Below, one piece after another: positions 4,669 through 19,342 of a DNA stretch of 64,000 bases. Every line of letters starts with the position of its first letter. Position 1 is the first letter of the stretch. The notes beneath the pieces were generated by a model. That model saw only the letters and a program-made list of their open reading frames with translations. It searched no databases and was not told the DNA's origin. Where the stretch lies: the NCBI RefSeq assembly GCF_003990725.2, contig NZ_CP030064.1, positions 124,001 to 188,000 of the forward strand, given 5' to 3'. The position numbers and the translations under genes are program-made. Source of the stretch: Halorubrum sp. PV6 (lineage in GTDB: Archaea > Halobacteriota > Halobacteria > Halobacteriales > Haloferacaceae).

Positions 4669-5220
4669 CTATCCGAGCCGGTTGCGGCGCGTCATCCGCC
4701 GGTGTACCAGACTGGAGACGCCGAACGCGACCGAGGTGAGAATCGCGTAGGTGTATCCCGAGACGCTCGCGAACGGAACCGTCCCAACCGCCGCGGCCGC
4801 GCCCGCGAGCGCCGCGACGACCGCGAGCCCGAAGTAGAACTCGCTCCAGAGAATCTCGTTTTCGGAGACGATCTCTAAGTACACCTCCAGCTTCCGGCTC
4901 TCGTCGGTGAGCGACACCAACCCCCGGTCGGACTCGTACTCGATGAACCCGCTCGCCGCCAGTTTCGGCAGGTGCGACTGGTGAAGCGCGGTGTACACGC
5001 GCTTGCGCTGTTTATACGACACCTCCGACACGTCGAGGTCGTTTTCCCACGCCGCCAACTGTTCCGCGATGTCGCGCACGCGCGCCTCCGGTTCGTTTTG
5101 TTTTAAATATTTGATCACCCGCCGTCGCCGTGCGTTGCTCAACGCGGTGAATATCTCGTCGCGCGAGGGCTCGGCCTCGCCGCTCTGCTGGTCCTGTTCG
5201 ACGGCGATTTGGGGTGTCAT
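4669..5220 (-). CDS. Membrane-anchored winged-helix regulator (DUF7344 type)
   Basis: The 183-residue protein has an N-terminal winged helix-turn-helix (about residues 18-110: LSNARRRRVIKYL, then RKRVYTALHQSHLPKLAASG and FIEYESDRGLVSL) and two predicted transmembrane helices near the C-terminus. This is the layout of the haloarchaeal DUF7344 family, usually annotated as transcriptional regulators tethered to the membrane. The ATG of MTPQIAVEQ was preferred to an upstream TTG. A second member of the same family lies at 6833-7369, and the two flank a membrane/zinc-ribbon gene next to the exported-protein cluster, so a role in controlling that cluster is plausible but unproven. A perfect palindrome lies in its probable promoter (5291-5302). 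Confidence 0.85.
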   Translation of the reverse strand: MTPQIAVEQDQQSGEAEPSRDEIFTALSNARRRRVIKYLKQNEPEARVRDIAEQLAAWENDLDVSEVSYKQRKRVYTALHQSHLPKLAASGFIEYESDRGLVSLTDESRKLEVYLEIVSENEILWSEFYFGLAVVAALAGAAAAVGTVPFASVSGYTYAILTSVAFGVSSLVHRRMTRRNRLG

Positions 5221-5290
5221 AATTGGGGTCAACGGGGATTGCTCTCTCGTTTGTTTGAACCTGTCTGCTCTCCCTAACTACTCCCCACCA

Positions 5291-5330
5291 TATCAATTGA
5301 TACCATCTCCCATTACGCTACGTTTATATA
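5291..5330 (-). promoter_or_regulatory. Probable promoter with palindromic operator for the first winged-helix gene
   Basis: On the minus strand a TATATAAA sequence (5322-5329) is followed about 20 bases later by the perfect 12-base palindrome TATCAATTGATA (5291-5302), close to where transcription would start, about 75 bases before the ATG at 5220. The palindrome is a candidate operator, possibly for autoregulation; this is inference from position only. The rest of the 305-base gap (5221-5525) holds no recognisable gene. Confidence 0.4.
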
Positions 5331-5525
5331 CTCCGTCGCGTCCGGACTGGAGTCGGCCGGAAACTCCCCCCGCTCGACCGGGCGACGCGTCGTCGCGGAT
5401 GTCGGCTCGGAGCGGGCCGCAGCGCCCTCGAAGTCACCAGCCCCGACCGCGGGAGCCGCGGACCCCGCCGATTTGCGACCGGTAGGCGACGCATACATAC
5501 GACCGTTTGACGCCAACGTCAGCGT

Positions 5526-6431
5526 ATGACTACGTCACACGACGCAGGGATCTCGGAGGCGCAGACAGCGGGGACCGATCGGCAACTGTTTGACCGATTC
5601 CGAAAGCCCGAGTACACCGGTGAGAACCGCTGTCTCCCGTGTACCGCGGTCAACGTCGGGATCGCGGCGGTCGGCGCGACGGCGGTGGGCGTGGTCGCCG
5701 GACCGCTCCTCGCCACGGCCGGGTTCGGCGCCGCGCTCGGGGCGATCTGGCTCCGCGGCTACCTCGTTCCGGGGACGCCCGAACTCACGAAACGCTACCT
5801 CCCGGAGCGCGTCCTCCGCCTGTTCGGGAAGGGGACTGAGCCCGCGCCCCTGACCGACATCGACGCGGAGTCGTACCTCCTGTCGTCCGGCGTCCTCGTC
5901 GAGACCCCCGACGGAGCCGACCTCTCCTTTGCTCCCTGGTTCGCGTCCGCGTGGGACGACGCCCTGGACGAGATGCGGTTCGACGCGGTCGCTCCGACCG
6001 ACGGCCCCGTGGTCTCGGACGACGACCCCAACGCCGACGTGGCGTCGCTCGCCTCGCTCACGGGCGTCCCCGAGGCGTCGCTCTCGCTCAGTTGGGGCGG
6101 CGGCGCCGCGTTCGCGTTCGCCGACGGCCAGCGTATCGGCCACTGGGAGTCTCGCTCCGCGTTCCTCTCGGACGTCGCCGCGAACCGCGCCCTCTCGGAG
6201 ACGCTGGACGACTGGTCCGCGCTCTCGCTCGCGGCGCGGAGCGACGTGCTCGGTGCGATCCGCCTGTTCGTCGAACAGTGTCCCGCCTGCGACGGTCCCG
6301 TGGCGCTCGAAGAGCGCGTCGTCGAGTCGTGTTGTAGCAGCTACGACGTGGTCGCCGGGCGCTGTACCGAGTGTGACGCGCGCCTGTTCGAGATGCAACT
6401 CCCGTCGCCGCCCGCCGCCGAGGCGGCCTGA
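5526..6431 (+). CDS. Conserved-looking membrane protein with C-terminal zinc-ribbon-like cysteines
   Basis: The 301-residue protein has a Cys-x2-Cys pair near residue 37 (NRCLPCTAVN), one or two hydrophobic segments at about residues 42-75, an acidic central region, and a C-terminal cluster (CPACDGP ... CCSSY ... CTECDARLF) that looks like a zinc ribbon. No enzyme motif is visible and I do not recognise a named family. It starts at an ATG and diverges from the winged-helix gene on its left. It lies between two membrane-anchored winged-helix regulators and just before the TasA-like locus, so it may be a membrane component or sensor of that locus; that is inferred from position alone. Confidence 0.75.
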   Translation: MTTSHDAGISEAQTAGTDRQLFDRFRKPEYTGENRCLPCTAVNVGIAAVGATAVGVVAGPLLATAGFGAALGAIWLRGYLVPGTPELTKRYLPERVLRLFGKGTEPAPLTDIDAESYLLSSGVLVETPDGADLSFAPWFASAWDDALDEMRFDAVAPTDGPVVSDDDPNADVASLASLTGVPEASLSLSWGGGAAFAFADGQRIGHWESRSAFLSDVAANRALSETLDDWSALSLAARSDVLGAIRLFVEQCPACDGPVALEERVVESCCSSYDVVAGRCTECDARLFEMQLPSPPAAEAA

Positions 6432-6832
6432 CGCCTGTTTCGCCTTCGCACCCTCACCACTCTTTGTCGTCGCCGGTCGCTCACTCATAAACCCCTCTCG
6501 CTGTCGGTCAGGCATTTTAAAAAACCGCCGTCGCCGTCGGAGTCGCGTGGCGTACGCCGGCCGCTCGCCGCGTGGTGGGTGCGGGGCCGGACGCCCGCGT
6601 CTCGTCGTACCCACCGCTCGAATCAGGTCTCGTCGTACCCGCCGCTCGGATCGGGTCTCGTCGCGCTCCAACTCGGATCGGGTCGGTGGCGCGCCGCCGA
6701 CTCGTGTTGAGCCCCTCTGTGCCGATCCGTGCGGAGCGCTGTGCTGGTCGTCTCTGCGTTCGAAAAATCCGACATCCCTCGGTTCCGACGCGTCAGTTCG
6801 CGCCGTCCGACGTGGCGCCGACGCGTCGTCGG
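6432..6832. other. Intergenic region without a supported gene
   Basis: About 400 bases between converging genes. It contains a T/A-rich run (6517-6525) that could end transcription of the gene on the left, and the 28-base tandem repeat described separately. The open frames crossing it are Arg/Ser/Pro-rich and I regard them as chance. Confidence 0.5.
6599..6682 (+). repeat. Three tandem copies of a 28-base unit
   Basis: Three consecutive copies begin GTCTCGTCG at 6599, 6627 and 6655. The first two differ at a few positions and the third is more diverged, ending in CTCGGATCGGG. The array is noncoding in every plausible frame. Function unknown. Confidence 0.75.
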
Positions 6833-7369
6833 CTATCGCCGCCGCCGGCCGAACTGCCGGATGACGGAGAAGCGGTTCACCCACAGCTGGTACGCGCCCA
6901 CGGCGGCGAACGCGCCGAGCGAGAGGCTCGTCCAGAGCACCGGGTTGATGAGCGCGAACGCCGAGAATTCGAGGAGGACCGCGAGGAGGACCGTCAGCGA
7001 CACGATGCCGAGCGCCCGGTACAGCTCCGACCACGTGATGCCGCCCTTGGCGACGATCTCGGTGTACAGCGACACGTCGCGCGCGTGGCGCGACAGCTCG
7101 ATGGTCTGGGTCGCTTTGTCATACTCTATCACGCCGACCTCCGCGAGCTTCGGGAGGTGCGTCTGGACGAGCGAGGTGTAGACGCTCTCTCGGCACCGAG
7201 CGGGCGGGGAGGCGTCGCCCGTCTCGTGGCTGGCGACCAGCGTCGACAGCTCGTGGACGGTCACCACGCCGCCGACGCTCTCGATGTGTTCGAGCGCGCG
7301 CCGGCGGCGCTCGTTCGCGAGAATTGCGTACACCTGTTCTGCCGGGAGGATGTCTGGTCGGTATTTCAT
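6833..7369 (-). CDS. Second membrane-anchored winged-helix regulator (DUF7344 type)
   Basis: The 178-residue protein has the same layout as the gene at 4669-5220: a winged helix-turn-helix in the first 110 residues (AILANERRRRALEHI, then ESVYTSLVQTHLPKLAEVG and VIEYDKATQTIEL), followed by two transmembrane helices (about residues 120-165) and a basic end (RQFGRRRR). It starts at the ATG of MKYRPDILP. It is divergent from the exported-protein cluster, with 423 bases between the two starts, so it is the best local candidate for a regulator of that cluster. The ligand or signal sensed is unknown. Confidence 0.85.
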   Translation of the reverse strand: MKYRPDILPAEQVYAILANERRRRALEHIESVGGVVTVHELSTLVASHETGDASPPARCRESVYTSLVQTHLPKLAEVGVIEYDKATQTIELSRHARDVSLYTEIVAKGGITWSELYRALGIVSLTVLLAVLLEFSAFALINPVLWTSLSLGAFAAVGAYQLWVNRFSVIRQFGRRRR

Positions 7370-7792
7370 CTGTCACTCCGACGCTCCGCTGTTCGCGAAG
7401 CCGTCAGTTGTTGGATGCTATAACGATTGTTGCTGGCATATGTATGCAGTAGATACCGCGCCCGCCGAGTCGTCGACGAGCCGGGGACCGCCCGAGCAAA
7501 CCGATAGCCCGCGGGCCGGTACGACCGCCCTACGGCCTCGGTTTCCCCGGCTCGGTGCCGCCTCGATGGTACGACACCCGTACCGCCGTTTTGGCCCGAG
7601 TAGGGCGCTCATGCGGTCGTTTTCGGCTTCGGTAGGCGCGTCGGACCGCCGGTCGAACGGCTCGTTCCAGTCGGTTCTAGCTCTCGTTCCATCGTGACAT
7701 GGCTGCTCGTAACTACGTGGGTATCCCCCCCATGGAGGAGTAACCGACTTAGCCACCAACCAAACCGGAGGCGTGTCGGACACCAATCAACC
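7370..7792. other. Divergent intergenic region upstream of the exported-protein cluster
   Basis: A 423-base gap between the divergent regulator and the first TasA-like gene. AT-rich patches at 7417-7446 (GCTATAACG, CATATGTATGC) are candidate promoter elements. A GGAGGAG at 7735-7741 lies too far from the ATG at 7793 to be its ribosome site. No gene is supported. Confidence 0.4.
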
Positions 7793-8659
7793 ATGAACCA
7801 AGACAACGACATCGGACTCTCGCGGCGCAAGATGCTTCTCGGACTCGGCGCAGTCGGCGTGGCCTCCGCGGGTGCCGGACTCGGCACCACGGCATACTTC
7901 AACGACACCGAAACCTTCGAGAACAATACCTTCACGGCCGGCACGCTCGACATGAGCGTCACGGCGAACCTCGTGGCGGCGGACGACTACTGGAGCGGCC
8001 AGACCGACATCCCCATGTCCGTGACCGCGGACGGCCAGGGTGTCACCGCGGGCCTCGTCGTCGACGACGTGAAGCCCGGCGACTGGGCGATCATCTGCTT
8101 CGACATCGAAGTCGGTGACAACCCCGGATACGTGCAGATCCGCACGGAGAACTTTATGGAGGCGGGCGGCGCGAACCCCGAGCCCGAACAGGAAGTTGAG
8201 GGCGACGCGAACAACAGCGCCGACCTCGGCGAGTTCATGCTCGCGTCCGTGTGGCAGAACTACGACGACACCAGCGGCGACAAGTCTGGACTCTCTGTCC
8301 TCGACCCCGTCTTCAACAACGCGCCCAACGCTACCGCAAACGCGTCCGGCATCACCTACGCGATGCCTGACGTTGGCGGTGTCGCCAGCGCAGACGCGCA
8401 CTACACGAACGCGCGCGAGGCCGACGACATCCTCAGCGGCGGATACATCGTCAAAGACGAGAACGGTGATTTCCTCGCAATCAACGACACGGAGAGCGAG
8501 GGTGTCTACTCGTTCTGTCTCCTGCTTGAGGTCCCGTTCGTCGTGGGCAACGTCATCCAGGGTGACAGCCTCTCGTTCGACCTGGTCTTCGAGACCGAAC
8601 AGGTCCGCCACAACGAGGACCCCTTCAACAACTCGGCACCGGTGAACTCCACCAACTGA
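7793..8659 (+). CDS. TasA/camelysin-like exported protein 1 with SipW-type signal
   Basis: The 288-residue protein starts with a twin-arginine sequence (LSRRKMLLGLG), a hydrophobic Ala/Gly stretch, and then the TasA-family processing signature TTAYFNDTETF ... NTFTAGTLDM. Cleavage is expected after the TTA, by a SipW-type signal peptidase such as the one encoded at 16285. The mature part (about 255 residues) has family landmarks shared with its neighbours: VDDVKPGDWA, DNPGYVQI and, near the C-terminus, VPFVVGNVIQGDSLSFDL and TEQVRHN. In bacteria, TasA/camelysin proteins form biofilm fibres; a similar role here is inferred. This is the simplest member of the tandem family, without an inserted domain. 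Confidence 0.88.
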   Translation: MNQDNDIGLSRRKMLLGLGAVGVASAGAGLGTTAYFNDTETFENNTFTAGTLDMSVTANLVAADDYWSGQTDIPMSVTADGQGVTAGLVVDDVKPGDWAIICFDIEVGDNPGYVQIRTENFMEAGGANPEPEQEVEGDANNSADLGEFMLASVWQNYDDTSGDKSGLSVLDPVFNNAPNATANASGITYAMPDVGGVASADAHYTNAREADDILSGGYIVKDENGDFLAINDTESEGVYSFCLLLEVPFVVGNVIQGDSLSFDLVFETEQVRHNEDPFNNSAPVNSTN

Positions 8660-8695
8660 TCTCGCGATCAGTATGAACAGCTCGAACCGCCCTAC

Positions 8696-8713
8696 GGCGA
8701 CGCGGTAGTCGCC
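8696..8713 (+). other. Perfect stem-loop between exported proteins 1 and 2
   Basis: GGCGAC (8696-8701), a six-base loop, and GTCGCC (8708-8713) form a perfect 6-base-pair hairpin in the 96-base gap, about 42 bases before the next ATG. It could be a terminator, a processing site or a translational control element. Confidence 0.4.
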
Positions 8714-8755
8714 GCGGGAGGTCGTGACTATCCACACAGTATACACACACATACA

Positions 8756-10462
8756 ATGACAAACGATTCAACCAACTTCGACCTCTCGCGGCGCAAGCTC
8801 CTGGCCGGCCTCGGCGCGGTCGGCGTGGCCTCTGCGGGCGCAGGGCTCGGAACCACGGCGTACTTCAACGACACGGAGACCTTCGCGGGCAACTCGCTCA
8901 CCGCGGGTGAGCTCAACCTGCTCGTCGACTGGCAGCAGACGTACGACTTCGGTAACGGCCACACCTTCATCAACGCGCACCCCGACCACGACGGCGACGG
9001 GGAGCAGTCGATCTCGGACGGCGACGGCGGACAGATCAAGTACAGCGACTACGTGGACATCGACGACCCGGACAGCACCGGGGAGAACCTCCCGATCCTG
9101 AACTGTGACAACATTCCGCCAATCGACGAGGCCGACTTCCGCACCGACCCCGTCACGGGCAACCAGATGGACACGCTGGTCCAACTCACCGACGTGAAGC
9201 CCGGCGACGAAGGCGAGATCACCTTCTCGCTGCACCTCTGTGACAACCCCGGCTACGTCTGGATGCAGGCCGACAACGTCTCCGAGAGCGAAGGCGTCGA
9301 CACGGACCCAGAGCTGGCGGTCGACACGCCCGACGGCGGCGACCTCGCGCAGTTCATTAACGCGAAGCTCTGGTACGACGCGGACTGCGACAACGTCCGC
9401 GACGAGGCGGAGCCCGCCGACATCATGCTGACGCTCGACTTCTCGGGCTCGATGCTGTACCGCCAGTACACCGGCGTCGTCAGCGAAGACCCCATCACGG
9501 TCGGTCCCGACAACTTCTCCGAGACGACGAAGATCGACCTCGTCGAGCTCGCGGCCAAGGAGTTCGTCCAGTACCTCGACGCGCAGAACGCGGACGTCCA
9601 GGTCGGTATCGCCTACTTCGACGGCGAGAGGAACGGCGACACCGAGCCGCGCACGGGCATCTTACAGCCGATGACCAGCGACCTCTCGGTCGTCGACGCG
9701 TCGCTCAATGGCCTGCGCCAGAAGCTGGCAAACGTCGTCAGCGGCGGTGCCGGCTCGACGCCTTTCGACGGCGACGGTAGCCCCGACCCCAACACGCTTG
9801 CGTCCGGCGGTATCGCGACCGGCACCTTCATCGGCGAAGGTATCGACGACGCGCAGGCAGAGCTCGCGCTGAACGGGCGACCGGGAATCAAAGCGGTGAA
9901 CATCGTGCTGTCGGACGGCGAGTCGTTCAACGGCACCGGCTCGACGTCGTTCAGCTCGCCGCAGGACGCGGCGACGGACGCGCGCAGCTCCTCGCCCAGT
10001 CCGGCGACGGACCTGTACACCGTTTCGGTCGGTAGCGCCAACGACAGCATCCTGCAGGACATGGCCGGTGCGGCGACATCGCCGGGGGACGATCCCCAGT
10101 TCTTCTACGATGTTGACGACCCGGTGGTGATCCCGACGGTGTTCGGCGTCCTCGCCAGCCAGTTCGTCGCAGAGAAGATCATCATGGAAGACAGCCTCGA
10201 CAACGTGCTCGCGGCGCTGTCCTCCGGGAACGGCATCCCGCTCGACGGCAACATCCTCACCATGTACGACGAGCTGGAAGACCCCGCGGCCGACGAGGAC
10301 CGCGACGCGTTCGAGGGCAACGGCCTGATGTACTGTATCGGACTGGATTGGGAACTGCCCTTCGAAGTGGGCAACGTGATCCAGGGCGACACGCTCGCCT
10401 TCGACCTCGGCTTCTACACCGAGCAGGAGCGCCACAACGACGGCGCGGGGGTCTCGGCCTGA
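8756..10462 (+). CDS. TasA-like exported protein 2 with nested von Willebrand A domain
   Basis: The 568-residue protein has a twin-arginine/SipW-type signal (LSRRKLLAGLG ... TTAYFNDTETF) and a TasA-like fold marked by LTDVKPGDEGE and DNPGYVWM. After LWYDADCDN, a von Willebrand A domain (about residues 222-475) begins with the metal-ion-binding motif D228-F-S-G-S232. The TasA-like sequence resumes with DNVLAALSSGNG and ends ELPFEVGNVIQGDTLAFDL ... TEQERHND. The vWA domain thus appears inserted inside the fold rather than added to an end. vWA domains usually mediate metal-dependent protein or matrix contacts, so adhesion or fibre capping is plausible. The signal region is very similar to its neighbours even at the DNA level. 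Confidence 0.88.
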   Translation: MTNDSTNFDLSRRKLLAGLGAVGVASAGAGLGTTAYFNDTETFAGNSLTAGELNLLVDWQQTYDFGNGHTFINAHPDHDGDGEQSISDGDGGQIKYSDYVDIDDPDSTGENLPILNCDNIPPIDEADFRTDPVTGNQMDTLVQLTDVKPGDEGEITFSLHLCDNPGYVWMQADNVSESEGVDTDPELAVDTPDGGDLAQFINAKLWYDADCDNVRDEAEPADIMLTLDFSGSMLYRQYTGVVSEDPITVGPDNFSETTKIDLVELAAKEFVQYLDAQNADVQVGIAYFDGERNGDTEPRTGILQPMTSDLSVVDASLNGLRQKLANVVSGGAGSTPFDGDGSPDPNTLASGGIATGTFIGEGIDDAQAELALNGRPGIKAVNIVLSDGESFNGTGSTSFSSPQDAATDARSSSPSPATDLYTVSVGSANDSILQDMAGAATSPGDDPQFFYDVDDPVVIPTVFGVLASQFVAEKIIMEDSLDNVLAALSSGNGIPLDGNILTMYDELEDPAADEDRDAFEGNGLMYCIGLDWELPFEVGNVIQGDTLAFDLGFYTEQERHNDGAGVSA

Positions 10463-10534
10463 TCCCGAACCGTCGCTGAGACACAGACTCCACGCAGGCC
10501 ATCTGCTCGCCGCTACGGCGACACGCCTGCGTCC

Positions 10535-10609
10535 CGATTCGGCGCTTTTCGCGGCCGACGAGACGGTTCACGACCGCTGTCGGGATTCCCCACTCGGGGA
10601 TGATTCCGT
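10535..10609 (+). promoter_or_regulatory. Conserved leader copy A with hairpin before exported protein 3
   Basis: This 75-base segment is clearly similar to 12133-12208. Both share CGGCGC, GCGGCCGACG and TTCACGACCGC/CTCACGACCGC blocks. It ends in a hairpin TCCCC-ACTC-GGGGA (10587-10600) exactly nine bases before the ATG. The 3' arm with its flank, GGGGATGAT, resembles a Shine-Dalgarno sequence, so the hairpin might mask ribosome binding; that is an inference. Confidence 0.6.
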
Positions 10610-12067
10610 ATGAATGACGACACAACCGGACTCTCGCGGCGCAAGCTCTTGGCCGGCCTCGGCGCGGTCGGCGTGGCCTCTGCGGGTGCGGGACTCGGAA
10701 CGACGGCGTATTTCAACGATACAGAAACGTTCGCAAACAACTCCTTTACTGCGGGAACTCTCGATTTAAAACTCGACTACAAATCAACCTACCTCGGCGG
10801 CCCCGGCCGCCTGTCGGACATCCAGGAGATGGGCTACCCGGACGCCGAGTCGCTCGGCGACGGGCGGTACCTGCTCGGCGAGGCGCCCACCGATGAGCAG
10901 ATCGAGGAGTGGGAGACGCTCGTGCAAAGCGACGTCTTCGACTTCTGTTCGCCCGAGGCGGACGAGTTCCTCGTCAACGGCGACGGCATTCCGATCTTCA
11001 CCCTCGAAGACGTGAAGCCCGGCGACTCCGGCGAAGTGACGATCAGCGTCCACATCTGTGACAACCCGGCGTACCTCTGGATGGCCGGCGAGATCACCAG
11101 CAACGAAGAGAGGGGACAGACGGAGCCCGAGATCGTAGACGAGGGCACCGACACGGACGGCATCGGCGAGCTCGCCGACGAGATTCAGGTCTGCGTCTGG
11201 TACGACGAAGACTGCGACAACGTCTTCGAGCCCACCGGCACGGGCGAGCGCAACGAACTGGAAGTCGCCCTGGTCAGCGACGTCTCCGGGTCGATGGGCG
11301 GAACCCCGCTCTCGTCGCTCAAGACGGCCGCGACGGGCTTCGTGGACAACCTCTCGTCTCCCGACGAGGCGGCGGCTATCTCGTTCAGCTCCAGCGCGAC
11401 GACAGACCAGGAGCTGACGAACGACTACCAGCTCGTCAAGGACGCCATCAACGCGTACTCCTCGGGCGGCGGAACGTCCATCGCGGCCGGCATCGACGAG
11501 GCCGCCGACGAACTGGTGAACGGCACCAACGCCACGCCCGGCGCATCCAAGGTGATGATCCTGCTGAGCGACGGCAACTCCAGTGCGACCGCTGCGACCA
11601 CCGCGGCGGACGCCGCCAAGAACGACGACGGCATCCGCATCTTCACCATCGCGCTCGGGAGCGCCAACACCTCGCTGCTCCAGAGCCTCGCGAGCTCGCC
11701 CGACGACGCGTTCGTCGCGCCCGATCCGGCCGACCTCGACACGGTCTACGCCGAGATCGCGGAGATCGTCTTGGAAGGCGAACAGAAGATCATCGAAGGC
11801 TCCATGACCGATGTCTTCGCGGCCCTCTCCGAGGGCGTCCCCCTGGACGGCAACCGCATCGAAGAGGGGACGCAGGCGTACCCCGGTGCGACGACCCAGT
11901 GTATCGGCTTCGAGTGGGAGCTCCCGTTCGTCGAGGCGGGCAACGAGGTCCAGACCGACTCGATCTCCTTCGACATCGGCCTCTACGCCGAGCAGGAGCG
12001 CCACAACGACGATCCCGCTGTGACGTTTAATGGAACGGAAGCGAACAGCACCAGCGCCGGTAACTGA
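10610..12067 (+). CDS. TasA-like exported protein 3 with nested von Willebrand A domain
   Basis: The 485-residue protein has the shared signal (LSRRKLLAGLG ... TTAYFNDTETF, then NSFTAGTLDL). The TasA-like landmarks LEDVKPGDSGE and DNPAYLWM precede VWYDEDCDN, where a vWA domain starts with D224-V-S-G-S228 and runs to about residue 390. The TasA-like part resumes with EGSMTDVFAALSEGVPLDG and WELPF, and ends AEQERHNDD. This vWA domain is shorter than in protein 2, but it sits at the equivalent position. The ATG is set by the conserved leader and hairpin nine bases upstream. It is probably secreted and processed by the SipW-like peptidase of this locus; an adhesin or fibre-associated role is inferred. 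Confidence 0.88.
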   Translation: MNDDTTGLSRRKLLAGLGAVGVASAGAGLGTTAYFNDTETFANNSFTAGTLDLKLDYKSTYLGGPGRLSDIQEMGYPDAESLGDGRYLLGEAPTDEQIEEWETLVQSDVFDFCSPEADEFLVNGDGIPIFTLEDVKPGDSGEVTISVHICDNPAYLWMAGEITSNEERGQTEPEIVDEGTDTDGIGELADEIQVCVWYDEDCDNVFEPTGTGERNELEVALVSDVSGSMGGTPLSSLKTAATGFVDNLSSPDEAAAISFSSSATTDQELTNDYQLVKDAINAYSSGGGTSIAAGIDEAADELVNGTNATPGASKVMILLSDGNSSATAATTAADAAKNDDGIRIFTIALGSANTSLLQSLASSPDDAFVAPDPADLDTVYAEIAEIVLEGEQKIIEGSMTDVFAALSEGVPLDGNRIEEGTQAYPGATTQCIGFEWELPFVEAGNEVQTDSISFDIGLYAEQERHNDDPAVTFNGTEANSTSAGN

Positions 12068-12132
12068 CCGATCTGAAACCGCGGCAGCGAGCGGGCGGCC
12101 CGCTCGCCTCGGGCGGAACTCCCGCCCGATCC

Positions 12133-12208
12133 CCGGCTCGGCGCCTTCGGGCGGCCGACGCGGCGGCTCACGACCGCCACCGGGAGTTCCCTTCGGGGAT
12201 GATACACA
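12133..12208 (+). promoter_or_regulatory. Conserved leader copy B with hairpin before exported protein 4
   Basis: This is the second copy of the leader seen at 10535-10609. Its hairpin TCCC-TTCG-GGGA (12188-12199) has a TTCG loop and again lies exactly nine bases before the ATG. The conservation of this noncoding sequence between two paralogues suggests either recent duplication or a maintained regulatory role. Confidence 0.6.
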
Positions 12209-13630
12209 ATGAACGACGACACTATCGGACTCTCGCGGCGCAAGATGCTGGTCGGACTCGGAGCGGTGGGCGTAGCCTCCGCGGGCGCGGGCCTCGGCAC
12301 CACGGCGTATTTCAACGACACGGAGACCTTCCAGGGCAACTCCCTCACGGCCGGCGAGCTCGACCTGTTCGTCCACGTCGACTACTCTGAGGACCAGGGC
12401 AGCTACGCGCAGTACCAGACCCCTGACGGGACCTTCATTGACGGCAACGTCGTCGGGGGCGGCGAGGGCGATCCTCTCAGCATTCAGGTCTCCGACCTGA
12501 AGCCCGGAGACTCCGGCGAGGGTGATTTCTGCTTCTCTATCGTCAACAATCCGGCGTACTTGTGGATGTGCGGCGATCTGACGGCGAACGACGAGAACGG
12601 GATGAACGAGCCCGAAACGGAGTCGGACGAAACCGCCGGCGGCGACCTCGCCGACGCGATGCAGGTGACCGTCTCGTACTGTACGAGCGACGGCGCGAAG
12701 GGCGCCGAGATCGTCTCCGGCTCGCTCCGGGACGTGATGCTGGCGCTCCGCGCCGGCGTCCCGCTGTACGGTGACGGCGACCCGAGCGCGCCGGTGGCGA
12801 ACCGCCCCGCGTTCGAGGGCGTCGAGGAGCCGTTCGTCGACGATGCGCCGAACGTCGCGGAGCAGTGCGTCTGCTTCGATTGGATCGTTCCCACCAGCGT
12901 CGGGAACGAGATCCAGTCCGACTCCGTCGAATTCGACTTCGAGTTCTACGCCGAGCAGTCGCGTCACAACGACGGGACGAACAACCCCTGCGTCGAGTTC
13001 GACACCGTCCTGACGACCGACGCCGGTCCGGGCGTCGACCGCGACGGCGACGAGCAGGGCGACGCGACGGGGAGCTGGATCACCGCGCGGGTGAGCAGCG
13101 GCCCCACCACGGTCGTGCAGGTGGAGCTCGACGGCGACATGTACGGCGGCGGCAGTTCCGGTCTCGGCGAGTGGCCGAGCAACCCGAACTCCTACGTCGT
13201 CGAGGCCAACTTCGACGTCAACACCGACGGGCTCGGTGAGAGCCCGAACGACGACTTCCGGTTCGGCTTCGGCAGCGCGACCTCCGGTGCCCGGTCCGGT
13301 GGCATCGCGAACAGCACGAGCGGCGCGAGCGGTGACGGCGGGTACATCCGTCGCAACATCGGCACCGGCGGAAACAACAACCGCTTCGACACCGCCGCGG
13401 AGGACGCGCCCGGCTTCCTCGCGGTCGAGAGCGCCGACCGGCTGACCTACACGTTCGTCATCGACTGGACGAGCGGCCTGCCGGCGCTGTCGAGCGTTCC
13501 GACCCAGTTCGTCGTGAAGGAGGTCTTCGCCAGCGACGGCGGCGAGGGCGTCGCGTCGCCGAACAGCTCGAACGACGGCCGCGCGGCCATCGACAACGTC
13601 ACCGACGCGTCGGGGGTCATCAACGTCTAG
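12209..13630 (+). CDS. TasA-like exported protein 4 with an extra C-terminal domain
   Basis: The 473-residue protein has the shared twin-arginine/SipW-type signal (LSRRKMLVGLG ... TTAYFNDTETF, NSLTAGELDL) and a TasA-like domain to about residue 250 (VSDLKPGDSGE, NNPAYLWM, SGSLRDVMLALRAGVPLYG, AEQSRHNDG). There is no vWA insertion, so this copy shows the uninterrupted fold. A further 220 residues follow, Gly/Asn/Ser-rich with many short beta-like stretches; I do not recognise this second domain. It may extend the subunit outward or bind a ligand. The ATG follows leader copy B by nine bases. Confidence 0.86.
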   Translation: MNDDTIGLSRRKMLVGLGAVGVASAGAGLGTTAYFNDTETFQGNSLTAGELDLFVHVDYSEDQGSYAQYQTPDGTFIDGNVVGGGEGDPLSIQVSDLKPGDSGEGDFCFSIVNNPAYLWMCGDLTANDENGMNEPETESDETAGGDLADAMQVTVSYCTSDGAKGAEIVSGSLRDVMLALRAGVPLYGDGDPSAPVANRPAFEGVEEPFVDDAPNVAEQCVCFDWIVPTSVGNEIQSDSVEFDFEFYAEQSRHNDGTNNPCVEFDTVLTTDAGPGVDRDGDEQGDATGSWITARVSSGPTTVVQVELDGDMYGGGSSGLGEWPSNPNSYVVEANFDVNTDGLGESPNDDFRFGFGSATSGARSGGIANSTSGASGDGGYIRRNIGTGGNNNRFDTAAEDAPGFLAVESADRLTYTFVIDWTSGLPALSSVPTQFVVKEVFASDGGEGVASPNSSNDGRAAIDNVTDASGVINV

Positions 13631-13709
13631 ATCGGCGCGTGACGCGGCGGGCGCGACGGCGCCCGTCCGACCGACCACCCCCCACTCCGGACCCGAAAGG
13701 CCGGGACGA

Positions 13710-13759
13710 CGGTTCGACTCCGTCGGTGGGCGTTCCCCCTCGGGGACAAGATATCATAC
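13710..13759 (+). promoter_or_regulatory. Orphan leader copy C without a following gene
   Basis: A third copy of the hairpin leader: CGGTTCGACTCCG, then GGGCG and a TCCCC-CTC-GGGGA hairpin (13734-13746). At the position where copies A and B have the ATG (ten bases after the hairpin) there is ATA (13756), and no TasA-like protein follows. The rest of the 376-base gap (13631-14006) holds no supported gene, so a paralogue may have been lost here. Confidence 0.5.
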
Positions 13760-14006
13760 ATAACAGTAAATTCGGCCCACTGCGGCACGAGTCGCCGGTC
13801 TGGAGACCGCCTCCAGGCCCACACTTCGGACGCGACCGGGGCCGAACCGAGATTTCGCGCGGATCCGCTCGAATCGGTCGGGAAGGACCGCGTACCCCTC
13901 AGGTAGGACCGTCGGACCGGTTCGGTAGGTAGTCCATACATACGGACTGAGACGGCGTAAGCAGTGATATCGACGAAACGGCCGTTCCGGAGCCGACACC
14001 ACCACC

Positions 14007-14798
14007 ATGACACAGAAAGGATCACAGGGATCGACAATCACCCGCCGGGAGGCACTTGCAGGCGTCGGAGCCGTCGGCTTCGCGACGCTCGGTGCCGCCA
14101 GCGGTAGACCGACGGGAACAGACAGCTGGGATAGGTACTCTGCGTACACGTACGCACAGACCGACACGCCCTGGGACTTGCTCGTCGGCTGGCGCAGCAC
14201 CGAGAACGGAACGCTCGTCGATTCCAGTCCCACCGACGTCGAAGACGACGTCGAAAGCGCCGGCATCCGTCTCGTCGACTTCGACAACGCGCTCCCCGGC
14301 GACGAGGGCACCGCGAGCGTCGGGCTCCGGCTCGAAGACTCCGCGGGCGCGGCCCCGGACGGGGTCCGCGTGTGGTTCCGTCTCGCGCTCTCGGACGCGT
14401 TCGACGACACCGATCCCGCGAGCGTCGCGCTCGCCGAGCGCATCCACCTCAACGTTCGGTACGACACCGGGCTACTCGGGATCGGTGCCTGCGCGGGCGC
14501 AGAGAGCGACTTCGCCGACTACGGTCGGGAGATCGCCGACGGAACCCTCGCCGACCTGGTCGCCGGCCCGCTGGCGGACGGGATCGAACTCGATCCCACG
14601 CTGCTCGGTGACGGCTGTCTCACGACCGACGAGCGACGCTGCCTCATCTTCACCTGGGAGTTCGACTCCATCGGCGGCAACGCCGGGCAGGGCGGGACCG
14701 TCGACTTCGACGTCGAATTCACCGCGGACGACTGCACCAGCAACGTGAATCCGTTCACGTACGAGCCGACCAACGCCACCGCCGACGGGGGCAACTGA
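14007..14798 (+). CDS. Exported protein 5, divergent relative of the TasA-like family
   Basis: The 263-residue protein has an N-terminal twin-arginine signal (TRREALAGVGAVGFATLGAAS) but lacks the YFxDTE processing signature of its neighbours. The C-terminal region keeps the family pattern (CLIFTWEFDSIGGNAGQGG, VDFDVEF, then NVNPF), and the DNALPGDEGTASVGLRL stretch matches the KPGD region of the paralogues. It is therefore probably an exported, structurally related component with a different signal; a pilin-like minor subunit is possible. It is the first gene of an overlapping operon: its TGA shares a base with the ATG of the next gene (TGATG). Confidence 0.75.
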   Translation: MTQKGSQGSTITRREALAGVGAVGFATLGAASGRPTGTDSWDRYSAYTYAQTDTPWDLLVGWRSTENGTLVDSSPTDVEDDVESAGIRLVDFDNALPGDEGTASVGLRLEDSAGAAPDGVRVWFRLALSDAFDDTDPASVALAERIHLNVRYDTGLLGIGACAGAESDFADYGREIADGTLADLVAGPLADGIELDPTLLGDGCLTTDERRCLIFTWEFDSIGGNAGQGGTVDFDVEFTADDCTSNVNPFTYEPTNATADGGN

Positions 14799-16285
14799 TG
14801 AGCCGCGACATCGACGGATCGCCTCGACCGAGCGGCGTGAGTCGCCGCCGGTTGCTCGCCGGCATCGGCGGCATCGGCGCCGTCGGACTGGCCAGCGGCC
14901 TCGGTACCGGAGCGTATCTCGCGGACCGCGAGACGTTCTCGAACAACACCTTCGGCGCCGGCACGGTCGAGCTCCTCGTGAACGACGAGCCCACCAGCGG
15001 CACCTTCGCCGTCGACGTGTCGGGGATCCGCCGCGGCGATTCGGGCTGGAAGGAGTTCGAAATCGGCGCCCAGACGAACCCGGTCCGGGTCTGGCTCGCG
15101 ACCGAGTGCGTGGCGAGCAACGGTCTCGCACGCGAGCTCGAAGTCGACGTTCACGTCGATGAAACCTCCGTGACCGGCGGATACAAGCCGCTTCGAACCG
15201 TTCGAGATGACCTGTTCAACGGCGAGCGGATCGACGACGGCTGTCTCGCCCCCGAGGACACGATCCTCGTAGAGGTCTACTGGCGGCTTCCGGCCAACGC
15301 GATGGATGTCAGCGGGCAGACTGCCGACCTGACTTTCCAGCTGTACGCCGAGCAGTGCCGCCACACCACCGAAGCGGACGCGGAGGCGATGAACCCCTTC
15401 GCCGGCCGCGTCTGCGACGAGAACCGGTGTGTCCCCTGCGCGGAAGAAAACGACGACGACGTCAAGGTCGGCGGGCTCAGGCTCAAATACCTCGGCGACG
15501 AGATCCTCGACCCGCTTGTCGTCCGGGCCACCGGCGGCGGCGGAGGCGGGAACGGACGGGGGAACGGCAACAACCCCCCGACCGTGATATTCAACGATAC
15601 GGTCGGGCCGAGCGAGGAGTTCGTCCTCGACGGTGCGGATTCCGGGACGAACACGCCAGGCTGGATCGGGCCGAACATCTACCTCGACTCCGGCGGCGGC
15701 GCGTCGCGGAACAAGCGCACCGAGACCAACATTCACACGAGCTGCTCGGAGCCGCTCGGCCCCGGCGACGTCTACGGCGACTTCGAGGTCGTCGCGGTGA
15801 CGACGACAGACGACGAGCTGGTCTGTGAGAGCGGCACCGGCGGCGACACGCCGGACGACGAGCCCGAGCCCGAACCCGAGTGCGCCGTCTGCGAGGACGA
15901 GAAGGCCTCGCTCGCGACGCTCGACATCGAGTACATCGGGTCCGACGACGCGACCATCTCGGTCGTCTCGACGAAGGGGAACACGAGCGGCGAACTGTTC
16001 GTCGGGACCGTCTCCCAAGGTGACGTCTTCACCCTCGACAGGAAAGACGTGATCCGGGGCGGTAACAACGGGAACGGGAACGGCAACGGGAACGGCGGCA
16101 ACGGCCGCCCGACCAACAAGCTTGGCCCGGAGGTCGAGATCAGCGTCGACGGCGAGGCGAGACCCGTCGTTATCCACGTGAGCTGCTCGCAGCCGCTCGC
16201 GGTGGGCGACGTGTACGGCGACTTCGAGATCGACGCTGGAACAACCACGGACGGCGAGTCGCTGTGCGGCTCGGAGGCGAACTGA
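14798..16285 (+). CDS. Exported protein 6: TasA-like head plus two repeated C-terminal domains
   Basis: The 495-residue protein starts with a twin-arginine/SipW-type signal (VSRRRLLAGIGG ... GAYLADRETFSNNTFGAGT) and a TasA-like domain ending LYAEQCRHT near residue 188. Two related domains follow, each opening with a Cys-x2-Cys pair (VPCAEEN; CAVCEDE), containing a Gly/Asn-rich linker, and closing with nearly the same block (CSEPLGPGDVYGDFEV and CSQPLAVGDVYGDFEI). Duplicated cysteine-containing domains on flexible linkers suggest an extended surface-exposed or ligand-binding tip; this is inferred. It overlaps both neighbours by TGATG junctions, so translation is likely coupled with the signal peptidase gene downstream. 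Confidence 0.84.
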   Translation: MSRDIDGSPRPSGVSRRRLLAGIGGIGAVGLASGLGTGAYLADRETFSNNTFGAGTVELLVNDEPTSGTFAVDVSGIRRGDSGWKEFEIGAQTNPVRVWLATECVASNGLARELEVDVHVDETSVTGGYKPLRTVRDDLFNGERIDDGCLAPEDTILVEVYWRLPANAMDVSGQTADLTFQLYAEQCRHTTEADAEAMNPFAGRVCDENRCVPCAEENDDDVKVGGLRLKYLGDEILDPLVVRATGGGGGGNGRGNGNNPPTVIFNDTVGPSEEFVLDGADSGTNTPGWIGPNIYLDSGGGASRNKRTETNIHTSCSEPLGPGDVYGDFEVVAVTTTDDELVCESGTGGDTPDDEPEPEPECAVCEDEKASLATLDIEYIGSDDATISVVSTKGNTSGELFVGTVSQGDVFTLDRKDVIRGGNNGNGNGNGNGGNGRPTNKLGPEVEISVDGEARPVVIHVSCSQPLAVGDVYGDFEIDAGTTTDGESLCGSEAN

Positions 16286-17472
16286 TGACAACCATACTCA
16301 CTTCAGCACGGATGAAACGGGCGGCGAACATACTCGGGATCGTCCTGCTGATCGCGCTCGTCACGCCGTTCGCCGTGTACGCGGTCCCCGAGGTCGTCAG
16401 CGCAGACGAGAGCTTCGTCGTGCTCACGCCGAGTATGACCCCCGCCATCGCGCCCGGCGACGTGGTCGTCGTCGCGGAGCGTGACCCCGCCACGGTCGCC
16501 GTTGGCGACGTGATCACGTTCATGCGGGGCACGAGCGACGTGCCCGTGACACATCGGGTGATCGGCGTCGTCGAGACGGCGAACGGCCTCGCCTTCGAGA
16601 CAATGGGAGACGCTAACGAGGGACCCGATCCCGGCCTCGTGCCGGCGGCGAACCTCGTCGGCGTGGTCGCGCTGACCATCCCGTACATCGGGTTCGTCAT
16701 CCAGTTCGCCGGCACGCCCGCCGGCTTCGTGACCCTGGTGTTGCTCCCCTTCGGTCTGCTTGCAGTCACCGAAATCTGGTCGCTGGTGCAGGGGCGGAAC
16801 GGAGCCGAACCGGTCGCCGCGGCGGACGCGAGCGACGATCCGGATGCGACCGACGATCCGGACGCGAGCGATGGCTCGGCCTCGCCGACCGCAGCGGCCG
16901 CAGTCGTCGAGTCGCCGGCCGACTCGTCGACCGAGTCATCGACCGACGCGACCGCCGTCGCCAACGAGGCGGCCAACGGCGGCGTTTCGGTCGACGCCAT
17001 CGGCGGTGCGGCGGCGATGCTCGCGCTGTTTGCCCCGTACGCGATCTACATCGCGTTCGAGCTTCGGACCGCCGCGCCCATCGCGGTCGCGATCGGCTCG
17101 ACCACGCTGCTGCTCGGCGCCCTCGCGATCTGGGTCCCGGCGAGCGGCGTCCTCTCGCGGTCCGCGTCTACGGCAACCAACGCGTCGGCGCCTGCCGACC
17201 CCGAACCGGTCGCCGAGACCGGCGCCACCGACGGCGGTGACGTCGAGTCGACGGCAGAGACCGACTCGTCCGCGGCCACCGAGTCGTCGGACGCGGTCAG
17301 CGAGACCGAGTCCGTCGGCGAGGCAGCGCCCGTCGACGAGACAACCGCCGAGACCGCGGACGGTCACACTGACCCGTTCACGTCGCCCGACTCGCTCGAC
17401 GGCGCCGACCCCACGGCGGGGTCGTCGGTGACGCCGCCTGCGCAGGCGGACCGCACGGGGGAGGGCGACTGA
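16285..17472 (+). CDS. SipW-like archaeal signal peptidase I with C-terminal membrane extension
   Basis: The 395-residue membrane protein has an N-terminal transmembrane helix and the Ser/His catalytic arrangement of archaeal/ER signal peptidases: Ser50 in LTPSMTP, His90 in VTHRVIGV, and Asp109/Asp115 in [10 protein letters not shown] second transmembrane segment follows the catalytic domain. After an acidic Ala/Asp/Ser linker there are two more hydrophobic helices (about residues 240-290) and an acidic tail, so it is much longer than a basic SipW. It probably removes the signal peptides of the TasA-like proteins encoded around it. The start is the ATG overlapping the upstream stop (TGATG). 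Confidence 0.9.
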
Positions 17473-18263
17473 TGCCCGTGAACCGCACGCTCGTCGGCCT
17501 CGTGGCCCTCGTGGTCTTGGTCTGGGGCGTCGCGTTCGGCGGCGGTGTCACCATCGCCGTGCTGACCGCGACCGCGAACGTGACGACGACCTTCGAGACG
17601 GCCGACGAGTTCACGCCCATCGAGAACACGACCGGCTCGGACCTGACCCGAACGGCCGCGATCGTGGGCGACACGCCCGACACGGACGATGCCGCGCCCA
17701 CGAGCGGGACGGACGCGAACGTGACTGACGCGAACGGGACGGGCGACAGCCCGCCCGAAGCGCCTCCGGTGAACGGGAGCGCCCCGGACGAACCGGTGAG
17801 CGACGAGCAGACGCCGGAGACGAACGAGAGCGACTCGGGCACCGGCGAGGGCGCTTCAGAGCCCCCGGCGGCTCCGTCGTCGCCCGGAGACGAGTCTGAA
17901 TCGGAATCAGAGGCTGAATCGGAGTCCGAGCCTGAGCCTGAGTCTGAATCGGAACCGGAACCGGAATCTGAATCGGAATCGGAGTCCGAGCCTGAGCCTG
18001 AGTCTGAATCGGAATCGGAACCGGAATCTGAATCGGAATCGGAGTCCGAGCCTGAGTCGGAGTCGACTCCTGACTCCGAGTCATCGTCGGAGTCCGAGTC
18101 AGACGCGACCGACGAACCGTCGCCCGACTCGGAGTCGGAGTCCGAATCACCCACCGAGTCCGCTTCGACCCCTGACTCCGAGTCGACTGACGACTCGGCG
18201 CCGTCATCGGACGAGCAGTCCACGGAGCAGACGGACTCACCCGACGCGGAGAGCCAGCCGTGA
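17472..18263 (+). CDS. Membrane-anchored acidic Ser/Glu/Pro repeat protein
   Basis: The 263-residue protein has one N-terminal hydrophobic helix (about residues 7-32). A Thr/Asn-containing stretch follows with several N-x-S/T sites, then a long tail built from Ser-Glu and Pro-Glu dipeptides (about residues 138-240). The tail resembles surface linkers that span the S-layer or cell wall and would stay extended in high salt. It overlaps the signal peptidase gene by TGATG, so it is translated with the locus. A stalk or anchor role is inferred; no catalytic motif is present. Confidence 0.8.
17922..18041 (+). repeat. Two tandem 60-base units coding for the Ser/Glu/Pro tail
   Basis: Two 60-base units, 17922-17981 and 17982-18041, each 20 codons long, are almost identical. 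A partial third copy starts at 18042. Because the period is a multiple of three, copy-number change would alter tail length without a frameshift. Confidence 0.85.
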
Positions 18264-18415
18264 TTCTCCCGAAACGTCGGATATCGCTTCCCGACTTCGG
18301 TTCGGAGAGGCGAGGCCGCCGTACTCGGCCTGGGAGGAAGCTCGCGGTGCTGTTGACGCTCCTCGTGCTGTTCGTTCTCGCGCTCCTCTCCGATCTGGTG
18401 AGTATGGCCGGCTGA
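18260..18415 (+). CDS. Small basic membrane protein (51 residues)
   Basis: A short frame starts at GTG 18260, overlapping the previous stop in the arrangement GTGA, and ends at TGA 18413-18415. The product has a very basic N-terminal half ([19 protein letters not shown]) followed by one hydrophobic helix ([16 protein letters not shown]) and a short tail, as in a single-pass membrane protein with positive residues inside. The stop-start overlap, identical in style to the junctions before it, supports translation as the last gene of the operon. Function unknown; it may assist assembly or the signal peptidase. Confidence 0.6.
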
Positions 18416-18544: not shown

Positions 18545-19342
18545 ATGGTCGCGCTCGATTCACTCGTGTTCGTTTTTATTGCGGGACTCATTACGGCGCT
18601 CGCGACCGGTATCGGCGCGCTGCCGTTCTTCGTGTTCGATTCGATAAGCGACCGCGGCAACGTGGCGCTTTGGGGGTTCGCCTCGGGCATCATGCTCGCG
18701 GCGTCGCTGTTCGGCCTCGTCCAGGAGGGGCTCGCCGAGGGGACGCCGACCCAGATCGGCGTCGGCGTCGCCGCGGGGGTCGGCCTCGTCGTCGTCGCCC
18801 ACGAAGTCCTCCTCGACGCCGACATCGACCCCCGAGAGTACGAGGAGGCCGACTTCACGAAGCTCGTGCTGATACTCGGGGTGTTGACCGTCCACAGTTT
18901 CCCCGAGGGCGTCGCCGTCGGCGTCTCCTTCGCCGACCTCGGACTGGCCAGCGGGACCCAGCTGTTCGGCTTCACCGTCCCGCTGCTCGCGGTGTTTATG
19001 ACCGTCGCGATATCGATCCACAACATCCCCGAGGGGACCGCCATCTCGATTCCCCTGCGGGCGATGGGCGTCTCGAAGTGGAAGATGGTGTGGTGGGCGG
19101 TGTTCTCCAGTCTCCCGCAGCCGATCGGCGCGGTCATCGCCTTCGCGTTCGTCCGCACCGCCCGCGAGTTCCTCCCGTACGGCTTCGGCTTCGCCGCGGG
19201 CGCGATGATCTACCTCGTCCTCACCGAGTTCATCCCCGAAGCGCTCGAAACGGGCGCGGAGCTCCCGCGGGGCGGCAAGCCGGTCCTCCTCGGCGGCTTG
19301 GCGCTCGGCGTCGCGCTCATGATCCCGCTCAACTTCGTCTGA
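18545..19342 (+). CDS. ZIP family divalent metal transporter
   Basis: The 265-residue membrane protein has about eight hydrophobic helices and the two ZIP signature motifs, HSFPEG in helix IV and HNIPEG in helix V, whose histidines and glutamates line the metal site. ZIP proteins import zinc or related divalent metals. The histidine-rich loop often found between helices III and IV is replaced by an acidic stretch ([12 protein letters not shown]), as expected in a halophile. The ATG start lies 129 bases after the TasA-like operon; a TTTTATACC box at 18440-18448 and an ATG-proximal TTATGTACC (18511-18519) are promoter candidates. Confidence 0.92.

Follow-up and report, generated by a model that had tools for sequence, protein, structure and literature searches.

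Fibers of the TasA type have been described in Bacillus and also in Pyrobaculum, where they form archaeal bundling pili (ABPs; PMC9674648, PMC10903470). The TasA filament displays a "proline box" formed by F29 from the inserted strand, Q232 from the receiving protomer, and P62 together with F200 from the one that follows, and Bacillus TasA is thought to arrive unfolded via SecYEG (PMC10151520). As for haloarchaea, Haloferax volcanii biofilms hold an unidentified amyloid-staining protein (PMC4180959), and haloarchaeal biofilms can develop in the absence of type IV pili and archaella (PMC7771232). The locus analyzed here is chromosomal and belongs to a Halorubrum-like haloarchaeon (Halorubrum sp. 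PV6); it lies within a 64,000-nucleotide stretch (contig NZ_CP030064.1, positions 124,001 to 188,000; this whole stretch is termed the window, and all positions below are window coordinates). It harbored six exported proteins T1 to T6 (plus strand, 7793-16285), followed by an endoplasmic reticulum (ER)-type signal peptidase SP, an acidic stalk-like protein ST (17472-18263), and a small membrane protein SM (18260-18415), and preceded by two DUF7344 regulators R1 and R2 and a membrane protein H2 (Table 1). An earlier note, made from the DNA letters, had read here a candidate TasA-like fiber locus with six exported proteins in one direction, two of them bearing von Willebrand factor type A (vWA) domains, then a Ser/His signal peptidase, an acidic stalk-like protein, and a small membrane protein, and all of these components were recovered. 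The operon probably encodes a heteropolymeric TasA-type donor-strand-exchange fiber displaying vWA adhesins. No published description of a haloarchaeal TasA/SipW locus was found in the open-access literature searched, the coverage of which was partial, with an earlier account elsewhere possible.

Relationship of the subunits to TasA

The subunits are TasA relatives across the whole domain, beyond the signal peptide. A hidden Markov model (HMM) of the mature T1/T4 domains, with the signal left out, was compared with 177,635 PDB sequences: TasA 5of1 (E 0.013) and TasA fiber 8aur (E 0.015) ranked first, with an alignment that began at the strand following the donor segment and ended at the terminal FxFxAxQ strand. 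For mature T1, the AlphaFold2 model [predicted local distance difference test (pLDDT) 67.6 and predicted template modeling score 0.70] gave TasA as the only Foldseek matches below 1e-3 (8aur, 3.1e-4; 5of2, 7.2e-4). VIA-align of this model gave Z 8.7, 8.7, and 8.3 to three TasA entries and 6.0 to the next unrelated fold, and the superposition on 5of1/5of2 (Z 8.7) had a root-mean-square deviation of 3.3-3.6 over 150-153 residues; the predicted T1 fold was thus closest to TasA rather than to an unrelated fold, in agreement with the TasA relationship proposed in the earlier note. The AbpA chain fell outside the sequence and fold matches listed for T1, among which TasA was present, and this absence of AbpA is uninformative.

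The remaining members were connected to T1 by profile comparison: T6 versus the T1/T4 domain and T5 versus the T1/T4 profile both gave hhalign 98.9% (E 1.3e-17 and 2.9e-17, respectively), while the vWA subunits aligned with the T1 profile at a profile-profile E of 1e-63, with the vWA region opposite a gap in the T1 profile. Assignment of the TasA part in T3 was supported by profile alignment to T1/T4; the T3 fold search says nothing on this part, because its match list was filled by vWA. The T6 profile had no match among the PDB sequences.

PF12389, named "camelysin metallo-endopeptidase", was matched above its gathering threshold (22.5 bits) by T1 and T4 (Table 1), T3 (26.5 bits), and T6 (25.6 bits), with T2 below it (18.8 bits) and T5 giving no match. 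These matches would suit camelysin-like surface metallopeptidases in place of structural subunits; this reading is very improbable, given that the PF12389 match lay mainly on the N-terminal signal/donor segment, that a single one of the 160 major subunits (pooled from all loci surveyed, see below, and used as the denominator for residue and motif counts) contained HExxH, and that Bacillus CalY/camelysin itself is described as a fiber subunit (PMC13082335, PMC10151520).

Protomer-interface residues

In 8aur, numbered from A28, P62 belonged to a KPGD motif and Q232 closed the FxFxAxQ strand; the mature T1 equivalents of TasA F29, P62, and Q232 were F2, P61, and Q236, respectively. These positions were occupied by Phe in 137 major subunits (plus 13 with Leu), by Pro in 156, and by Gln in 154, and all three residues were invariant in a 23-sequence alignment. 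This bears on the possibility that the products are secreted as processed monomers or form a non-polymerizing matrix/S-layer-associated coat of TasA-fold adhesins, with vWA binding ligands individually. Such a coat would be compatible with the enlargement of the subunits by vWA and extra C-terminal domains and with the orphan TasA-domain proteins that lie away from any peptidase, including one beta-helix-like fusion in the same genome; it is considered unlikely, since the strongest constraint was placed on TasA protomer-interface residues, including an N-terminal Phe relevant only when inserted in a neighbor, and since a multi-subunit operon with a dedicated peptidase also argues against it.

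T5 departed from this pattern: the N-terminal Phe and the SipW site were each found in 0 of 51 T5 proteins, while Pro was kept in 34/34 and Gln in only 6/39 alignable sequences. T5 had no family in Pfam or NCBIfam. The simplest reading is that T5 would be a protomer able to close a fiber and unable to donate a strand. A general loss of the P62 equivalent from T6 was considered as well; it held in Halorubrum but was rejected, since, across genera, Pro was present at 8 of the 14 T6 positions aligned.

Signal peptidase, signals, and export

SP is, as classified by sequence, an archaeal signal peptidase I (TIGR02228, cut-off 51.85 bits), and it was the strongest of seven TIGR02228 matches in the genome and matched human SEC11A at 5.8e-10. 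Its catalytic motifs Ser-Met-x-Pro and Thr-His-Arg were present in 24/24 orthologues, so the label Ser/His, not Lys, is correct. Peptidase genes were syntenic with subunit genes across genera, and the SP subfamily (with a C-terminal membrane segment plus acidic tail) stood alongside the subunits in all named genera. In TasA, an aromatic P2' residue makes the site unfit for ordinary signal peptidase I (PMC10269814); the predicted subunit site, read as TTA↓YFND, likewise has Phe at P2', which would fit the need for a dedicated peptidase. SP would be expected to work in a SipW-like manner.

The processing signature that the earlier note had seen in five of the six exported proteins corresponded to TIGR04088, which exceeded its cut-off in T1, T2, T3, T4, and T6 and had no match in T5. 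The whole genome had six TIGR04088 matches in 3.04 Mb, five of which were within the 8-kb run of the locus; the clustering of SipW-type signals is therefore not due to chance. The S/T-RR motif ahead of a hydrophobic stretch was found in 145/160 major subunits, and the NCBIfam TAT model was below cut-off in the locus proteins. Twin-arginine (RR) signals in haloarchaea suggest the twin-arginine translocation (Tat) pathway and therefore folded export, and the motif suggests that the subunits may be exported folded via Tat. ST contained a hydrophobic N-terminus and a Ser/Glu stalk without a globular domain; its similarity was of low complexity only, to SD-repeat stalks of SdrC/ClfA, and ALLSDEE-type motifs were seen by eye in ST of Halorientalis, Haloglomus, and Halolamina.

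The peptidase and signal types also speak to an ordinary type IV pilus or archaellum accessory locus, which vWA proteins linked to some archaeal type IV pili (PMC4858521) might bring to mind: the peptidase was of S26 type, the signals were of SipW type, and neither an assembly ATPase, TadC, a prepilin peptidase family, nor class III signals were found among the ten locus proteins scanned. This explanation is contradicted by gene content and is scarcely credible.

vWA insertion

The vWA domains of T2 and T3 (PF00092 cut-off 23.8 bits) were inserted between a TasA-domain strand ending in VWYDxDCDN and a helix GSLxDVxAAL; in the T3 AlphaFold2 model (pLDDT 82.5), the insert occupied residues 181-358 of the mature protein and was predicted with high confidence. 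The metal ion-dependent adhesion site (MIDAS; DxSxS...T...D) was retained in most of the 43 aligned vWA subunits (D, 40; S, 39; S, 41; T, 38; D, 40). Among solved structures, T3 vWA came closest to Mfa5, a tip protein of type V pili, whose vWF domain (Z 26.7) ranked ahead of other vWA domains; the SpaC pilus adhesin was also among the T3 structural matches. Given the intact MIDAS, the Mfa5 best match, and the additional SpaC match, the most economical reading is that vWA would act as a metal-dependent adhesin displayed on a fiber subunit.

A fiber might also be made for a role not mainly adhesive or biofilm-related (e.g., a cell-cell mating, virus-interaction, or S-layer-crossing appendage). 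The variation of subunit sets between species at a fixed chromosomal site would accord with such a role; the closeness of vWA to pilus-tip adhesins and the action of TasA and ABP fibers in biofilms (PMC9674648, PMC10903470) argue against it, and it is judged improbable.

Conservation of the cassette

A single scan of 85,000 named genomes gave 25 loci, belonging to Halorubrum, Halorientalis, Halobellus, Halospeciosus, Halolamina, Halomicroarcula, Haloglomus, and one uncultured archaeon; a survey of the order gave 60 further loci, mostly from other genera but partly from the same species as the named set, so the two sets are not additive. vWA presence across loci was counted with an HMM. T5 was present in 23 of the 25 named-genome loci and in the window, and all these 24 loci carried at least one vWA subunit; the Saliphagus locus displayed a reduced form without T5 or vWA. 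The order regulators–subunits–T5–T6–peptidase was recurrent across genera. Within Halorubrum, the mutS–ZIP site was fixed and the subunit set varied: T1 occurred in the window as well as in H. coriense and H. tebenquichense, while most other Halorubrum had T3–T4–T2.

In the order survey, 27/60 loci contained T5, and these had vWA (22 loci), T6 directly after T5 (23), a peptidase no more than three genes downstream (25), opposite-strand DUF7344 (27/27), and H2 (21/27). The vWA insertion tracked T5, being found in 22/27 loci with T5 versus 1/33 loci without it. The T5 profile matched 63 of 286 genomes of the order at 1e-6 (52 at 1e-20 among the matches listed), and TIGR04088 matched 110/293 order genomes and was sparse elsewhere in the phylum. 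The medians for T2 to T4 were ~51-75%, versus 81% for mutS and 86% for ZIP; divergence was faster in the subunits than in the fixed flanks, which would be expected for proteins exposed at the surface. The locus is a conserved cassette, not a coincidence.

Many T5-less loci looked minimal, composed of a peptidase of ~185 amino acids (aa) plus two subunits of ~200-240 aa, like bacterial sipW–calY operons; such loci (L041, L043, L045, L047, L063, and similar) represented a second, simpler haloarchaeal TasA-type system. As for H2, which had no Pfam family above cut-off, a system-specific status was ruled out by the presence of its family in 254/286 order genomes, frequently as multiple copies and frequently outside TasA loci. 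A second H2–DUF7344 pair was located nearby in Halobellus (L016 17843-19316), and H2 proteins may partner DUF7344 regulators more generally.

Proposed mechanism

With gene content, linkage, homology, fold, and residue conservation observed as above, a scheme can be proposed for the export route, the cleavage position, polymerization, and the roles of vWA, T5, T6, ST, SM, and the regulators. T1 to T4 and T6 would be exported with RR (Tat-like) signals, and the operon's own ER-type peptidase would trim the subunits at ...GTTA↓YFND, exposing an N-terminal strand that would insert into the next subunit (donor-strand exchange); T1 to T4, possibly together with T6, would polymerize in this way. The vWA/MIDAS in a subunit loop of T2/T3 would provide a metal-dependent adhesin along the fiber or at its tip, and T5, an acceptor domain without a donor strand, would end or anchor the fiber. 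ST and the 51-aa SM would tether or initiate it at the membrane, and the DUF7344 pair plus the zinc-ribbon membrane protein H2 would control expression.

Several points weigh against this scheme. The filament, its processing, its role, and donor-strand exchange between subunits are predictions from sequence and modeled structure. The E-values of the PDB profile search were marginal (0.013), and the T1 model was of moderate confidence (pLDDT 67.6), with donor-strand residues 1-7 below 50. T1 scored 20.6 bits for the TasA equivalog NF046066 (450 required), and it is therefore a relative, not TasA itself; SP scored 87.2 bits for the SipW equivalog NF046067 (190 required), and it is therefore said to work like SipW, not to be SipW. 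The use of Tat is a prediction from the RR motif, and the signal-like site in ST was seen by eye only, with no call by TIGR04088.

A heteropolymeric TasA-type fiber is still the preferred explanation. Its more detailed version, in which vWA adhesins are carried in the repeating subunit, Tat exports folded proteins before a dedicated peptidase exposes the strand, and the ends are set by the acceptor-only T5 and the donor-like N-terminus on the disordered stalk of ST, is put forward tentatively, as less likely than not. If true, it would define a haloarchaeal class of donor-strand fiber, every vWA protomer of which both polymerizes and binds. The locus is distinguished from the known fibers by a vWA domain placed within the TasA domain, the lack of a donor strand in T5, the RR signals, and a regulatory block of its own. 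The system would be a second archaeal branch of TasA-type fibers, with the vWA insertion found almost only in the T5 loci surveyed, and a widespread operon with TasA-fiber parts provides named genes for genetically tractable species.

Gene list and neighboring features

The genes of the locus were listed together with their flanks (Table 1). The T1 start was assigned to the ATG at 7793, rather than to the longer open reading frame (ORF) from 7694, and the 51-aa SM ORF is taken as a real gene because most Halorubrum loci had an ORF at this position with the same overlap. The earlier note had described the genes as mostly overlapping: T5/T6, T6/SP, SP/ST, and ST/SM did touch or overlap, but gaps of 96, 147, 141, and 376 bp separated the genes from T1 to T5. 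It had also begun the locus at 4669, which takes in three extra genes, two of them (DUF7344) on the opposite strand, yet all are members of the conserved cassette.

Table 1. Genes of the TasA-type locus and its flanks (window coordinates)
Feature	Position	Strand	Evidence or remark
mutS	1849-4608	-	Left flank of locus
R1: DUF7344 winged-helix regulator, C-terminal membrane segment	4669-5232	-	PF24035 102.7 bits; position kept in most loci
H2: membrane protein, two predicted N-terminal transmembrane (TM) segments, C-terminal CxxC...CxxC zinc-ribbon-like end	5526-6431	+	Orthologues at this location in most loci
R2: second DUF7344 regulator, divergent from subunit genes	6833-7369	-	PF24035 87.8 bits
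T1: single-domain TasA-type subunit, SipW-dependent signal, RR motif	7793-8659	+	TIGR04088 39.6, PF12389 32.5 bits; TasA fold Z 8.7
T2: TasA-type subunit, vWA inserted	8756-10462	+	TIGR04088 28.6, PF00092 29.8 bits; split-domain alignment
T3: TasA-type subunit, vWA inserted	10610-12067	+	PF00092 88.6 bits; AlphaFold2 model
T4: TasA-type subunit plus C-terminal extra domain of ~200 aa	12209-13630	+	TIGR04088 31.8, PF12389 27.0 bits
T5: TasA-domain paralogue, RR signal, without SipW-type site or donor-strand N-terminus	14007-14798	+	hhalign to T1/T4 profile
T6: TasA-type domain, variant site (GTGAYLADRETF), Cys-rich linker, DUF7467 repeats	14798-16285	+	TIGR04088 22.5, PF24269 72.5 bits
SP: ER/archaeal-type (S26B) signal peptidase, extra C-terminal membrane segment, acidic tail	16285-17472	+	TIGR02228 100.7 bits
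ST: N-terminal hydrophobic segment, then Ser/Glu-rich stalk	17472-18263	+	Acidic protein
SM: 51-aa single-TM protein, basic N-terminus	18260-18415	+	Overlapping ORF recurrent in most Halorubrum loci
ZIP transporter gene	18545-19342		PF02535; right flank of locus

Two subunit regions were variable between species: (i) the C-terminal module of T4 (12700-13630), composed of ~200 aa without a Pfam family and (ii) the T6 region 15500-16285, composed of two DUF7467 repeats with Gly/Asn-rich linkers between them. Elsewhere in the genome, an orphan SipW-type TasA-domain protein with C-terminal right-handed beta-helix-like repeats and without a linked peptidase was encoded at G000 C1:1139126-1141030 (L032 8127-10031, minus strand), and it could be a minor subunit borrowing the operon's peptidase. 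The window further contained the gene of DNA polymerase II large subunit (DP2) at 38490-43601, interrupted in frame by an intein (LAGLIDADG and intein splicing domains), which accounts for the G+C dip at 41-43 kb. An Rfam scan of the window gave no match.

Comparison with known systems

The haloarchaeal loci and the Bacillus subtilis tapA–sipW–tasA operon shared a SipW-type signal, an ER-type peptidase in the operon, the TasA fold, and the F29/P62/Q232 equivalents, but they differed in several respects: the haloarchaeal loci had two to five or more major subunits, compared to one in B. subtilis, and they contained vWA in the TasA domain, T5, T6, RR (Tat-like) signals, and DUF7344 control. No TapA homologue was recognized at the haloarchaeal locus, and the TasA and SipW equivalog cut-offs were not reached.

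The AbpA bundling pili of Pyrobaculum calidifontis have a single main subunit. They resemble the putative haloarchaeal fiber as an archaeal TasA-related donor-strand fiber (PMC9674648, PMC10903470). The Bacillus cereus operon sipW–calY1–bc_1280(CapP)–calY2/tasA likewise combined several co-assembling camelysins, an accessory protein, and a peptidase in one operon (PMC13082335, PMC10151520); however, no vWA was described and no T5/T6 counterparts were identified there, and CapP was not recognized at the haloarchaeal locus. The pilus-tip adhesins Mfa5 (Porphyromonas type V pili) and SpaC shared with the putative haloarchaeal fiber a vWA domain carried in a pilus, but vWA was located in the tip protein there, while the haloarchaeal vWA was located inside an apparent polymerizing subunit.

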